Shown here one piece after another: positions 14,511 through 22,078 of a stretch of 64,000 bases of DNA. The stretch is taken from NCBI GenBank assembly GCA_026770025.1, contig JAMXDE010000005.1, positions 682,001-746,000 on the forward strand, read 5' to 3'. The translations under genes were made by a program, and so were the position numbers. Positions within the stretch are counted from its first letter, which is position 1; each line of letters begins with the position of its first letter. The notes beneath the pieces were generated by a model. That model saw only the letters and a program-made list of their open reading frames with translations. It was not told the DNA's origin and did not search any database. This DNA comes from Craspedostauros australis. Lineage: Eukaryota; Bacillariophyta; Bacillariophyceae; Mastogloiales; Achnanthaceae.

Positions 14511-14922
14511 TAGTCTCGCTTGGTGAGGTGGTGATACATATGGAGTGAATTATTTGACTTGTACTGCGAAGTGATGATGGAGTGAGGGCAGAGTGTGGAC
14601 GGAGAACTGACCAGAGAGTGGTGGACGGTCTCTAAAAAAAAAGTTGCAGAAGACTTGGTTGTATAGTATTCTATTATATAATATGATGTCAAGATGGATG
14701 GAAGCAAACTGAGCAAATGAATTGAAGTTCTGCTCTGTTGTCTCCCTCCATGTAGCGCCTTGCTGTTGCAGACACTGACGTGAAGAATCAACGGATTCGC
14801 AATGCACTCCGCAACTGTGTGCTTGTGCGAGTATGGTAGCTCTCCGCCAACACAAAAGTGGAGTTCTTCCACGATGAGAGCACATTCATACTACTCCCCA
14901 TATCCATGAGGAAATTTTCATG

Positions 14923-16759: not shown

Positions 16760-16784
16760 ATCAGGGGTCCTCTATCGCGACAGA

Positions 16785-16789
16785 ATTTC
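16785..16789 (+). repeat. Target site duplication (left), ATTTC
   Basis: The five bases before the 5' LTR equal the five after the 3' LTR (22041-22045). A 5-bp duplication is usual for Ty1/copia integration. Confidence 0.9.
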
Positions 16790-16977
16790 TGTTGATTCCA
16801 GTCCCGCCCGTGACTCGCCTGTCCATCGCCAGAACGCTATGCACCTCGCGCCCACTTTTCTGCTAGAGACAGGCAAGCTACGATCAGGAATCCTTTCCGC
16901 AACTCCAGCGCTAATCAATACAATCTCTCATAAATATTAGCGAACAACATTGATTCACTCACTCAGTCCTATTGACA
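16790..16977 (+). repeat. 5' LTR (188 bp)
   Basis: Starts TGTTGATTCC and ends CTATTGACA. It is identical to the LTR at 21853-22040. A CATAAATA stretch at 16929-16936 could be a TATA-like or poly(A)-related signal. It contains the 14-nt sequence 16935-16948 that is complementary to the bases just after the LTR. Confidence 0.95.
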
Positions 16978-16991
16978 GTTGTTCGCTAATA
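16978..16991 (+). promoter_or_regulatory. Candidate primer-binding site, complementary to the LTR itself
   Basis: GTTGTTCGCTAATA begins at the first base after the LTR, exactly where a primer-binding site belongs. It is the perfect reverse complement of 16935-16948 in the LTR. It does not begin with TGG, so pairing with the 3' CCA of a tRNA is not evident. Self-priming, as in the fission-yeast Tf1 element where the 5' end of the transcript folds back on the binding site, would need transcription to start near 16935 (inference). Confidence 0.6.
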
Positions 16992-17044
16992 GCAAGTGCA
17001 CCCAAACATCGGGCACCAAGACCAACACCACCACGATCATCACC

Positions 17045-18202
17045 ATGGCCAACAGCCACGAAAAAATCCTCGCCACATTTCCGCAGGCCGTCGTCAAGCC
17101 GATCATCGGATTGCCCACCTACAAAACCATCGCCGAACTCAACATTGTACTCAACGCCAACGCAGCTTCCGTCCATTGCCCCCTGGGGAATGGAGAGCTG
17201 GGATACCTGGTTCTCACCGTATCCAACGAGATCTACAACGAGCAATCGGCAACGGCATTCGTCGTACCAGCCAATCCAGGACCGCATCCAGTCATCCCAA
17301 CGGGAGCCACAGCAGCACAAATCAGCGCAGCCACCAGCATCCACAAGGAACAAGAGCGCCTGTGGAGAGAGTACCGCACTGTCGACAACGCGCTCAAACA
17401 ACAACTTCTTGGCGCAGTCGAGGACCAGTACGTGCGAACCCTTCGGCACAACATTGTGGGATACGCCAACGTCTCCACCCTGCAGCTGCTCACCCATCTG
17501 TACAGCACGTACGGCAAGATCACCCCTCAAGACCTGGATGCCAACGACAAGGCCATGAAGAATGCCTACGATCCAGCGGAGCCATTCGAGGTGCTCGTCT
17601 CACAGATCGAATCCGCGCGCGATCTTGCCGCGGCAGCCAAGACACCGTACACCGATCACCAGCTGGTCAACACAGCATACAACCTTGTGTTCCAAACACA
17701 GCAGTTCCCCGAAGCATGCCGTTCTTTCCGCGCCCTCAGTGCCGCCGACAAGACCTGGACACGGTTCAAAGCCGACTTCGCAGCCGCCCACCAAGACCTC
17801 CGCGAAGCCCAGTCGTCCACCACGACTTCGGGATTCCAAGGAGCCAACGCAGCAACTGCGGCTGAAGAGACAGCCGAAGCTCTCGCGAACCTTGCGTCAG
17901 CCACTGCAGCCGACCGCAACGCCGTCGCCCTTCTCACCGAAAGCAACGCAAACTTGGTCAAGCAACTGTCCGAGATCACCGCCATGGTATCCAAGCTTCA
18001 AGTCAACACCGCAGGAGCAGGAGGGGCAGCCGCGAAGACGCACAAGCACAAGCACAACTCGTACTGCTGGACGCACGGCTACAAGGTCAGCGCCACACAC
18101 AACAGCGCCACCTGCAACAAGCCCGCCGAAGGACACAAGCGTGAGGCGACCCGAAGCAACACCATGGGAGGGTCCAACGCGGGAGCACCGACGAACGCAT
18201 GA
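17045..18202 (+). CDS. Gag polyprotein of the copia element
   Basis: 385 residues from ATG 17045 to TGA 18202. This ATG is the first after the primer-binding region and has ACC before it. The body is helical, with Ala-rich segments and a long helix at about 275-320. Near the C-terminus a zinc-binding pattern C-x2-H-x7-H-x4-C (from YCWTHG) resembles the Gag zinc fingers of stramenopile copia elements. Gag assembles the virus-like particle and binds the RNA genome. The same frame continues past the stop into Pol. Confidence 0.88.
   Translation: MANSHEKILATFPQAVVKPIIGLPTYKTIAELNIVLNANAASVHCPLGNGELGYLVLTVSNEIYNEQSATAFVVPANPGPHPVIPTGATAAQISAATSIHKEQERLWREYRTVDNALKQQLLGAVEDQYVRTLRHNIVGYANVSTLQLLTHLYSTYGKITPQDLDANDKAMKNAYDPAEPFEVLVSQIESARDLAAAAKTPYTDHQLVNTAYNLVFQTQQFPEACRSFRALSAADKTWTRFKADFAAAHQDLREAQSSTTTSGFQGANAATAAEETAEALANLASATAADRNAVALLTESNANLVKQLSEITAMVSKLQVNTAGAGGAAAKTHKHKHNSYCWTHGYKVSATHNSATCNKPAEGHKREATRSNTMGGSNAGAPTNA
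18200..18202 (+). promoter_or_regulatory. In-frame UGA between Gag and Pol, probable readthrough site
   Basis: Gag ends in UGA followed by CAA AAA CGG, and Pol is open in the same frame immediately after it. No frameshift is needed, and Pol has no early in-frame ATG. UGA followed by C is a leaky context in eukaryotes (established). Readthrough would give a fixed low ratio of Gag-Pol to Gag. Confidence 0.65.
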
Positions 18203-21200
18203 CAAAAACGGCAGGAACACAGTAACCAAGTAGTGAACTCCATCACGAATTCATCACCCTGTGTGCCTGCCCTAGCCATTGTCGACTCTGGTTGTACCAG
18301 CCATTTCCTGCGAGAGACCGATCCGTGCCTCAACAAGACAAACGACAAAAATCCACTCACAGTGACGCTGCCTGATGGTTCGACGATTGAATCGTCGCAC
18401 CAAGCAACGGTGAGCATGACCAACGTGCCCCAACACGCATGCACCGCAAGAGTTTTTCCACAACTCACCAGCGCAGCACTCCTTTCCGTGGGGCAACTGT
18501 GTGACCATGGTATGACCGTCGAGTTTGACCAAGAAGCAGTACGTGTTCGCCGAAACGGAACCACGATTCACACCGGTCGTCGGCATCAAGTTGACGGCAT
18601 GTATCGCGTAAACATCACACCACAAGAATTGGCAGTCCGGCATTCAGCCAATCACATCCACCACACGTCCACCAAGACAGAACTCGCCAAATTCTTCCAC
18701 CAATGTTGCTTCAGCCCCTCGGTGGCAACTTTCACAGCCGCCATAAAGAAAGGATTCTTCGCGTCCTGGCCGGGACTCACAGAGCAACTAATTCAAAAAT
18801 TCCTTCCACCTTCCGATGCAACGGCGGCAGGACACATGCGTCAACAGTACCAAAACACCCAATCCACGAAGAACCGGTGCAATCACGGCAACCAATCCAC
18901 CAAGAATCCCCCAGAACCCCATGACGTGTTCATGGACGTTTTTCGGCCAACAGGGAAGACGTACACCGATCAAACTGGACGCTTCCCGGTGACGTCAAGC
19001 AGAGGCAACCAGTACATCATGATACTCTACGATCATGATTCGAACGCAATTCTGTCACGCCCCATGCGCAGTCGCCACGCATCAGAGCTCACGCGAGCAT
19101 GCGGCGAATTACTGGATGTTCTCCTACGAGCGGGTCTCAAGCCACGTTTCCACCGAATGGACAACGAGGCCCCTGCAGAGCTCAAGCAACTCATCCAAGC
19201 CAAAAACATGGAATACCAACTAGTTCCACCAGGCATCCATCGACGCAACGCAGCCGAGAGAGCAATATCAACATGGAAAGATCACTTCATCGCAGGTCTG
19301 GCAACAGCCGACGACGACTTCCCACTGCATCTATGGTGCCGAATGCTACCTCAGTGCGACATCACACTCAATCTGCTCCGGCCATCACGAGTGAACCCAC
19401 ACATCTCCGCGTATCACGTCCTCCATGGAAACTTCGATTTCAACGCAACACCCCTCGCACCACCGGGCACGAAAGCCATCGCGCACGACAAACCAGCAAA
19501 ACGAGCCACATGGGCACCGCACGGAACCAAAGGATGGTACATCGCACCAGCCATGGAACACTACCGATGCTACCAAATCTACTGCACCAACACGCGGAAA
19601 GTCCGCATCACCGACACCGTCGAACTCAAGCCAAGTCGTTGTGCAACACCGATGCCAACCAACGCAGAGCTAGCCATCAAAGCCGCAGGCGACCTGGCCG
19701 AGGCACTCAAAACGCCCTGCCCACCAATACAAGCAGTCGGCGACCAGCAGCTAGGCGCGTTGGAGGAGCTCAGCCGAATCTTCCAAACAGTCGCCCCAAC
19801 CAAACGAGATGCACCACTTCCGAGGGTGCCGGAGCGCGCCACAGTCCCAGCGACGACGGCAACAACAAACACTCGAACCAGCCAACCTCACGCTACCAAC
19901 AAGCACACGCCAGCACCTCCGAGGGTGCCAGAGACGGCCCCGGCAGTGACGGACGACGAAGACTCCGGCGACGAAGACGACGACGACCACGAGGAAACAC
20001 CGCCGAGCGAGACGACCGCCGCAGCCCGCACGAGACTGCGCACGGGCGCAATCCAGCGACGACGATGGGACACCAACGCCCCGAAGGCCAACGCCGTCAT
20101 CGACGAACGCACCGGAACCGCGTACGAGTACCGACATCTCGTCGCAGGCAAAGTGCATGGCCACACACCCGAGCAGTGGTACCGATCGTTCGCCAACGAA
20201 ATCGGACGCCTGGCACAAGGCATCGGCACGCGCATACCAGCGACAGCGGCCACAAACACCATCTTCTTCATCCCGAGAAACAAAGTCCCCAAGGATCGCA
20301 CCATCACATACGGACGCATCGTATGCGCCGTGCGACCACAGAAGGCAGAAACCCACCGCACGCGCCTCACCGTGGGCGGCAACCTCATCGACTACCCCTT
20401 CGACGTACACACGCCAACCGCCGAGCTGACGACGGCCAAGTGTCTCTTCAACAGCGTGGTCTCCACACCAGCAGCCAAATTCATGACCATCGACATCAAG
20501 GATTTTTACCTCAACACCGAGATGGAGAGATACGAGTACATGCGAATGCCCATCGCCATGATGCCACCGGAAGTCGTCGAACAGTACAAACTCCACGACC
20601 TCGAACACAAAGGCAACGTGTATGTGGAAGTACGCAAGGGCATGTACGGCCTCCCACAAGCCGGCAAAATAGCGAATGTGAAACTCCAGAAACACCTCGC
20701 AAAATTCGGATACCGCCCAGTCGTGCACACACCTGGACTGTGGAAACACGATTGCAGACCCATCACTTTCACCCTGGTCGTCGACGATTTCGGTGTGAAA
20801 TATGTGGGCGAAGAACACGCGAAGCACCTCATCGGCGCTTTGCAAACCATCTACAAGTGTATAGTCGAGTGGAGCGGCGATCTCTACTGCGGCGTGAGTC
20901 TCAAATGGGACTACACGAAGCGAACAGTGGAGCTCTCCATGCCAGGATACGTGCAAAAAGCACTTCACAAGTTTCAGCACCCCATCCCCACTCGACCACA
21001 ACATGCGCCGGCACCATGGGACGCGCCAACCTACGGGGCGAAGACACAAGAGCCCAAACACGACGACACATCGCCCAAACTCCCGGCAGAACAAATCATC
21101 CGCATTCGACAAGTGGTGGGGACACTACTGTACTACGCCAGAGCAGTGGACCCAACCATCCTGCCAGCAGTAAGCGACATCGCCACACAGCAGGCGCACG

Positions 21201-22003
21201 CGACACAAGACACCGAACGGCGCGTGAACCAACTCATGGACTACTGCGCCACACATCCCAACGCCATTCTGGTGTATCATGCCAGCGACATGATCTTGCA
21301 TGTCGACAGCGACGCATCCTACCTCAGCTTACCAAAAGCGAGAAGCCGGGCCGGAGGCCACATGTACCTCAGCAAACGGTCCACCGAAGCCACCAAGGCA
21401 CCGAGCACCGAGCCACCCAACAATGGCGCCATCCACACTGTATGCAACAAAATACAAAATGTGATGAGCTCCGCGGCCGAAGCCGAAGTGGGCGCCCTGT
21501 ACTTGAACTGCACAGCAGCCACAGCACTTCGCACAACGCTCGACGAGTTGGGACATCCCCAACCACCTACACCCATCAAAACAGACAATTCCACAGCATC
21601 TGGAATTGTGAACAACACGATGAAACAACGACGCACACGGGCCATGGACATGCGATTCTACTGGGTACGCGACCGCGTCCAGCAGGGCCAGTTCATCATA
21701 TATTGGGCCCCAGGAGCCGACAACCTCGCCGACTACTTCACCAAACATCATCCGGCAGCTCACCATCGCAAAATGCGCGAAGTCTACCTCAAGCCCACTC
21801 CAGACAGTGGCAAGGCAACAGGACAGAGCATGCTGGGAGTTCCGCGAGGGTGTGTTGATTCCAGTCCCGCCCGTGACTCGCCTGTCCATCGCCAGAACGC
21901 TATGCACCTCGCGCCCACTTTTCTGCTAGAGACAGGCAAGCTACGATCAGGAATCCTTTCCGCAACTCCAGCGCTAATCAATACAATCTCTCATAAATAT
22001 TAG
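18203..22003 (+). CDS. Pol polyprotein (protease, integrase, reverse transcriptase, RNase H)
   Basis: 1,266 codons are open without interruption. In order: aspartic protease with DSG at 18284-18292; a pre-integrase zinc region (HHTSTK..FFHQCC); integrase core with Asp in TDQTGRFP (about 18967), Asp in MDNEAP (19160) and Glu in NAAERAI (19256, 32 residues further); reverse transcriptase with IDIKDFYLN, the KGMYGLPQAGK motif and VVDD in LVVDDFGVKY; RNase H with HVDSDAS, SSAAEAEVGAL and KTDNSTA, then NLADYFTKHHP. All catalytic acidic residues expected for copia are present. The frame has no natural ATG start and is expected to be made by readthrough of the Gag stop. It ends at TAG 22001-22003 inside the 3' LTR, so its last 50 or so residues are LTR-encoded. 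Confidence 0.93.
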   Translation, partial: QKRQEHSNQVVNSITNSSPCVPALAIVDSGCTSHFLRETDPCLNKTNDKNPLTVTLPDGSTIESSHQATVSMTNVPQHACTARVFPQLTSAALLSVGQLCDHGMTVEFDQEAVRVRRNGTTIHTGRRHQVDGMYRVNITPQELAVRHSANHIHHTSTKTELAKFFHQCCFSPSVATFTAAIKKGFFASWPGLTEQLIQKFLPPSDATAAGHMRQQYQNTQSTKNRCNHGNQSTKNPPEPHDVFMDVFRPTGKTYTDQTGRFPVTSSRGNQYIMILYDHDSNAILSRPMRSRHASELTRACGELLDVLLRAGLKPRFHRMDNEAPAELKQLIQAKNMEYQLVPPGIHRRNAAERAISTWKDHFIAGLATADDDFPLHLWCRMLPQCDITLNLLRPSRVNPHISAYHVLHGNFDFNATPLAPPGTKAIAHDKPAKRATWAPHGTKGWYIAPAMEHYRCYQIYCTNTRKVRITDTVELKPSRCATPMPTNAELAIKAAGDLAEALKTPCPPIQAVGDQQLGALEELSRIFQTVAPTKRDAPLPRVPERATVPATTATTNTRTSQPHATNKHTPAPPRVPETAPAVTDDEDSGDEDDDDHEETPPSETTAAARTRLRTGAIQRRRWDTNAPKANAVIDERTGTAYEYRHLVAGKVHGHTPEQWYRSFANEIGRLAQGIGTRIPATAATNTIFFIPRNKVPKDRTITYGRIVCAVRPQKAETHRTRLTVGGNLIDYPFDVHTPTAELTTAKCLFNSVVSTPAAKFMTIDIKDFYLNTEMERYEYMRMPIAMMPPEVVEQYKLHDLEHKGNVYVEVRKGMYGLPQAGKIANVKLQKHLAKFGYRPVVHTPGLWKHDCRPITFTLVVDDFGVKYVGEEHAKHLIGALQTIYKCIVEWSGDLYCGVSLKWDYTKRTVELSMPGYVQKALHKFQHPIPTRPQHAPAPWDAPTYGAKTQEPKHDDTSPKLPAEQIIRIRQVVGTLLYYARAVDPTILPAVSDIATQQAHATQDTERRVNQLMDYCATHPNAILVYHASDMILHVDSDASYLSLPKARSRAGGHMYLSKRSTEATKAPSTEPPNNGAIHTVCNKIQNVMSSAAEAEVGALYLNCTAATALRTTLDELGHPQPPTPIKTDNSTASGIVNNTMKQRRTRAMDMRFYWVRDRVQQGQFIIYWAPGADNLADYFTKHHPAAHHRKMREVYLKPTPDSGKATGQSMLGVPRGCVDSSPARDSPVHRQNAMHLAPTFLLETGKLRSGILSATPALINTISHKY
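21836..21852 (+). promoter_or_regulatory. Weak polypurine tract before the 3' LTR
   Basis: The bases before the 3' LTR contain GGGAG and GCGAGGG, the position where plus-strand DNA synthesis is normally primed. The tract is short and interrupted by pyrimidines. Confidence 0.45.
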
Positions 22004-22040
22004 CGAACAACATTGATTCACTCACTCAGTCCTATTGACA
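21853..22040 (+). repeat. 3' LTR (188 bp)
   Basis: Identical to the 5' LTR at 16790-16977. The Pol stop codon lies inside it at 22001-22003. Confidence 0.95.
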
Positions 22041-22045
22041 ATTTC
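22041..22045 (+). repeat. Target site duplication (right), ATTTC
   Basis: Equals 16785-16789 on the left side of the element. Confidence 0.9.
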
Positions 22046-22078
22046 CTCATGGATATCGTTCTCCAGTCCCTTTGGTGC

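Follow-up and report, generated by a model that had tools for sequence, protein, structure and literature searches.

The best-known cases of self-priming of reverse transcription come from one gypsy lineage, the Tf1/sushi elements of Ty3/gypsy, in which a 5' RNA segment lying in the LTR is complementary to the primer-binding site (PBS) that follows the LTR; the Tf1 primer is the first 11 bases of its own RNA, and the complementarity is 11 nt (PMC7175516). For Tj1, a fungal element of Schizosaccharomyces japonicus, the self-primer was proposed, from the element's own sequence, to be a part of the 5' LTR that can pair with the PBS, with no relatives compared in the accessible portion of that report (PMC4600332). 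Among copia-type elements, self-priming was predicted for the TAR lineage of Ty1/copia in a survey of plants, on the criterion that a blastn match of 10 bp or more begins 0-5 bp past the LTR; the survey also cites an earlier self-priming proposal for Houba and Osr-1 (PMC6317226). A preliminary description of the locus analyzed here knew of no copia example of self-priming, a statement that this survey corrects. The TAR lineage, with Houba and Osr-1, is like the present element in being of copia type with predicted self-priming, but it is a plant lineage and the excerpt of the survey at hand contains no compensatory analysis, unlike the comparison of families A-H presented below (PMC6317226). 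The fungal GalEa copia elements carry, in place of a tRNA PBS, a Conserved Hairpin Site, described in the accessible text as a palindrome without a complement in the LTR (PMC5445492).

The diatom CoDi elements share the superfamily of the present element and probably its host group. The accessible CoDi literature contained no text on self-priming: in the available part of PMC2806351 PBS occurs once, as a buffer, and 'primer binding' does not occur, and that of PMC8147415 has no relevant passage. In the portions at hand, PMC7466962 (diatom) mentions the PBS only as a filtering step, and no discussion of primers was found in PMC12803021 (diatom), PMC12477816 (brown alga), PMC5348765 (oomycete), and PMC5963040 (haptophyte). 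As judged from titles and the openings of abstracts, the open-licence literature yielded no report of self-priming in a diatom or other stramenopile copia element. Because the mechanism is already known in Tf1/sushi and predicted for TAR, what we describe is a new, unusually well supported case and not a new kind of priming. If our reading is true, copia elements outside plants have either evolved or retained self-priming, in seven arm/PBS pairs from two distant clades of one alga.

The window, by which we mean the whole stretch of 64,000 nucleotides that was analyzed, contains at 16790-22040 a young Ty1/copia-type LTR retrotransposon of 5.25 kb (Table 1). Its TG...CA LTRs and 5-bp target duplication are those of Ty1/copia (Pseudoviridae). 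The gag ORF had no Pfam match. In pol, an integrase-side domain precedes the reverse transcriptase: SH3_retrovirus matched residues 408-465 (22 bits, under the Pfam cut-off of 27) and RVT_2 matched residues 704-855 (26.6 bits, under the cut-off of 31.6), and this succession of an SH3-type domain and a copia-type reverse transcriptase, both weak matches, indicates the copia order of pol. The element therefore differs from Tf1/sushi in pol order and superfamily, as well as in arm length (14-18 nt across its relatives). Membership of the Tf1/sushi lineage was considered and rejected, since the reverse transcriptase does not come before the integrase.

Table 1. Features of the copia-type element and its flanks, in window positions.
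Feature	Position	Strand	Remark
Left target-site duplication, ATTTC	16785..16789	+	same 5 bp flanks both element ends
5' LTR, TGTTGATT...TATTGACA, 188 bp	16790..16977	+	identical to 21853-22040
CATAA, 5' side of arm	16929..16933	+	putative initiator; start would be at A16930
Self-primer arm (candidate) in LTR, TATTAGCGAACAAC	16935..16948	+	covaries with PBS across families
29-nt loop, rest of LTR	16949..16977	+	weak inner stem predicted
Primer-binding site, GTTGTTCGCTAATA	16978..16991	+	exact reverse complement of arm, directly after LTR
gag ORF	17045..18202	+	frame open from 16979; TGA end at 18200-18202
pol ORF	18203..22003	+	same frame as gag after single TGA; stop at 22001-22003
3' LTR	21853..22040	+	identical to 5' LTR over 188 bp
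Second arm copy, in 3' LTR	21998..22011	+	window 21998 = C3:703998
Right target-site duplication, ATTTC	22041..22045	+	same 5 bp flanks both element ends

The preliminary description held that the bases directly after the 5' LTR are an exact reverse complement of an LTR segment, that the pairing halts at the LTR boundary, and that the site lacks a tRNA-like TGG, and all of this was reproduced: 14 of 14 positions pair, the next pair would be A-A, and TGG is absent from 16978-17020. Among 4845 internal positions tested, only the PBS has an exact complement of at least 14 nt in the LTR; suffixes of the PBS site aside, the next best internal complement is 10 nt long (2 positions). When the LTR was shuffled 20,000 times at the mononucleotide level, the complement at the PBS start never exceeded 11 nt. 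Folding of the RNA from 16930 placed both arms in the minimum-energy hairpin (-27.3 kcal/mol, z = -3.85), and none of 200 shuffles of this leader gave a hairpin as good. The window PBS is not palindromic and has its complement in the LTR, which sets it apart from the GalEa site. A chance inverted repeat was also considered and is ruled out by the shuffles, the internal-position test, and the partner-swap test given below.

We searched the host assembly (74.8 Mb, 90 contigs) for relatives of the element, and all DNA-level comparisons of arm and PBS are within this one genome. A diatom host is likely: the RuBisCO large subunit encoded in the assembly scored 1049-1072 bits against five solved chains (7yk5, 5mz2, 5n9z, 5oya, 6ftl), which are diatom enzymes, and only 926 bits against the next chain. 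The DNA search with the element returned at least 44 matches. Family A comprises seven 5' junctions including that of the window, 98-100% identical, and the sister family B ten 5' junctions at 78-82% identity. The two families share the same arm pair, exact in 5 of 7 junctions in A and in 10 of 10 in B, and since they hardly differ at it, they are uninformative on covariation. In one of the inexact elements (A_C6), the last PBS base is changed and leaves one position unpaired; in the other (A_C50), the same arm change is found in both LTRs while the PBS retains the old sequence, again with one unpaired position. The latter pattern is that expected if the LTR arms of a daughter element derive from the 3' R and its PBS from elsewhere. 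A degraded relative at C7:2536408, counted in no junction tally, has an altered arm in its 3' LTR. Of the exact window 14-mer, 59 copies were listed in the genome; each is an LTR arm or PBS inside these elements, and none was found elsewhere in the assembly: 39 are in a 25-28-nt arm context, 16 form the PBS next to an arm of this kind, and the other four were recognized as LTR sequence on reading or fall within an LTR match.

The informative comparison comes from distant families. A search with pol found, besides one full-length relative at 74% identity (family C, on C76), many elements at 22-30%. Altogether, the genome holds seven versions of arm and PBS, each matched to its own partner, in two deeply separated copia clades; families A and B share one arm, so the eight families A-H represent seven arm types. 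Across 31 5' junctions of these families, the whole arm, 14-18 nt long, matches exactly in 29 (A 5/7, B 10/10, C 1/1, D 4/4, E 2/2, F 3/3, G 2/2, H 2/2), a tally that covers junctions within the fetched stretches and thus leaves out the relatives at C2:404-415k, C7:2.54M, and C16. The family C arm, TACTAATTCACAAC, has five differences from the window arm in 14 positions, all of them compensated in the PBS. Families D-G each have an arm of their own of 15-18 nt, with the exact complement directly after the LTR and loops of 98-103 nt; across families the loops range from 29 to 103 nt. With six arm types compared over 14 positions, 84 of 84 pairs form, every position showing two to four pair types, and in a partner-swap test over 720 arm-PBS pairings the true pairing scored 84, against 74 for the next best and a mean of 40.3.

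Family H was used for a prediction. From a C29 element of which only the 3' LTR had been read beforehand, the arm CCAATTCAAAGTA was taken and its PBS predicted, and a genome search for the 13-mer returned seven sites. In both of the two type H elements found, the complement lies 99 nt past the arm, directly after the LTR end ...CAACA, and forms 16 pairs. Two other sites are the 3' LTRs of the same two elements, and the last is an LTR-like arm with no PBS in the fetched stretch. The covariation of arm and PBS in related copies, which the preliminary description had named as a check, thus passed with seven matched versions, one of them predicted in advance.

The pairing halts at the LTR end in families A and C and reaches one base further in D, F, G, and H, and in 10 of 10 elements checked from families C-H the last base shared with the 3' LTR is the one immediately preceding the PBS. 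A stable hairpin was predicted in all eight leaders folded (families A-G). In a reverse transcriptase tree of 18 rows, families A-C form one clade (support 100/100) and families D-G with the C29 element another (100/98), while the rows C13, C19, C80, and C4, which belong to families with a palindrome after the LTR (discussed below), lie outside both. The two clades are split by long branches, and with these and no outgroup the tree accommodates one or two origins of self-priming alike. Two pattern scans of viral contigs gave 1 and 56 matching stretches, among which there was no confirmed relative.

Fold-back priming requires the arm to lie near the 5' end of the RNA. Each of the eight families A-H has a CAYAA motif flanking the arm on its 5' side, with anything from a one-base gap to a two-base overlap. 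Should this motif act as an initiator with its first A as the start, only 2-5 bases of RNA would precede the arm, in line with the requirement of self-priming. In the accessible part of the source consulted the species searched was pseudonana, and the match of CAYAA here is partial (PMC3599244). Alternatively, CATAAA could serve as a poly(A) signal or in the manner of a TATA box; in the latter case it would place the start ~30 nt downstream, and the arm would then not be at the 5' end of the RNA.

Self-priming of the Tf1 kind is much the best explanation of the arm and its PBS, and the RNA of the element very probably serves as its own primer for reverse transcription. The seven matched versions, including the predicted one, support what the preliminary description had suggested for this copia-type element. 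In the proposed pathway, transcription would start a few bases before the arm, probably at about 16930, and the RNA 5' end would fold back to bring the arm into pairing with the 14-nt PBS that adjoins the LTR. By analogy with Tf1, the RNase H of the element would cut the RNA at the end of the arm, 3' of base 16948, and extension from the 3' end thus freed would run through the LTR end, making 16949-16977 the first stretch to be reverse transcribed. The daughter element could also receive its PBS as a copy of the primer, and arm and PBS would thereby stay matched during sequence drift. In tRNA-primed elements, too, the primer can template the PBS of the daughter copy. An arm that is itself the primer would be predicted to show perfect matching together with free drift, and the perfect matching in many families with unrelated arms would arise because the arm is copied into the PBS. 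The mismatched PBS of A_C50 indicates that this update does not always happen. Nor is such an arm universal, as it is found in none of five other copia families of the genome. If the pathway is true, primer sequences can turn over completely yet remain matched, and the several natural combinations of arm and PBS are a ready set for testing RNA primers cut by RNase H.

Three other explanations were weighed against self-priming. The arm might lie in U3 and thus be present only at the 3' end of the RNA, where its pairing with the PBS region would circularize the genomic RNA with no role in priming. Ty1 does use 5'-3' complementary sequences, and the CATAAA before the arm is readable as a TATA-like box, but we consider circularization improbable: the pairing starts at most one base from the LTR boundary in families A, C, D, E, F, G, and H, where the 3' end of a primer must lie, R plus U5 would be only ~20 nt in families A and C, and the same site would still have to be served by another primer, none having been found among the genomic copies of the 14-mer or in the partial tRNA set. 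That the inverted pair is instead a regulatory or structural hairpin, for example one controlling RNA packaging, translation, or polyadenylation, would agree with the hairpins predicted in the eight leaders and with the pol stop codon (families A and C) and the possible poly(A) signal, which overlap or adjoin the arm. Such a hairpin would, however, have no need to end at the LTR boundary or to replace a tRNA PBS, nor any need for perfect pairing of 14-18 nt in seven versions with loops of such different lengths, and this explanation appears very unlikely.

Drosophila copia is primed by a tRNA fragment. Half-tRNA primers are known in Ty1/copia according to the available part of the plant survey (PMC6317226), and a tRNA fragment or other cellular RNA could likewise prime at the PBS here, the LTR arm being a coincidence or a copy. 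Among 42 tRNA genes called by ARAGORN at 35 loci, an incomplete set, we found no useful match to the window PBS, and the 40 nt that follow the 5' LTR of the window element have no complement longer than 9 nt at any of these loci, the 9-nt one falling between tRNA genes, in spacer sequence. The loci were drawn from 63 listed matches of 1610 candidates; large contigs carry 26 of the 35, and three contigs, probably organellar, carry the others. The nuclear types covered are Thr, Ala, Gly, Lys, Arg, Ile, Ser, and Trp only, and no nuclear initiator tRNA was recognized among them. Because the set is partial, the tRNA search taken alone leaves room for a tRNA primer. Seven unrelated PBSs would, however, need seven primers, each of which also occurs in the element's own LTR, and neither the confinement of the exact 14-mer to the elements nor the lack of TGG at the site favors a cellular RNA. 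We therefore regard a primer from the cell as highly improbable, and a tRNA primer was rejected as the best reading given that the 14-mer is found only in the elements and the loci of the partial tRNA set match by 9 nt or less.

In the five copia families without an LTR arm (C13, C19; C4, C80, C78), the 5' LTR is followed immediately by a 12-nt palindrome, CGTTTTAAAACG or CGTTTCGAAACG. No clear tRNA match to this site was seen for C13, C4, and C80 in the partial tRNA set. These families, and not the window element, resemble the GalEa Conserved Hairpin Site, and their priming is possibly between two RNAs. It is conceivable, but rather unlikely, that the copia elements of this alga abandoned tRNA primers altogether, one set in favor of a cis fold-back with a freely drifting primer copied into the PBS, and a second set (the five families) in favor of the palindrome CGTTTYRAAACG as a self-complementary PBS, with priming in trans within the packaged RNA dimer. 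The palindrome families point to an unexplained second priming mode in the same genome.

Several further features of the element were observed. A single TGA at 18200-18202 separates gag from pol with no change of frame, and it may be read through; the pol frame has the same open length of 1266 codons in five of the seven family A elements, so the TGA looks conserved. At its other end (21853-22003), pol crosses the entire U3 and stops within the arm of the 3' LTR (TAT TAG), and the family C pol likewise stops at the arm (TAC TAA). A protein search with pol in public genome and metagenome sets found 2393 relatives at E <= 0.001 among 7996 scored, the abundance of which suggests that the copia clade of the window element is large. 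The best 120 of the 2393 are 54-77% identical, and some metagenome relatives among these 120 have similar pol endings (...SLIY or ...LSY). The element is inserted in one end of an apparent DNA element of ~1.9 kb (14900-14916; 16784-16789 joined to 22046-22056), whose ends are ATATCCATGAGGAAATT and its reverse complement and which contains subterminal TGTCTCAGGAGACA repeats.
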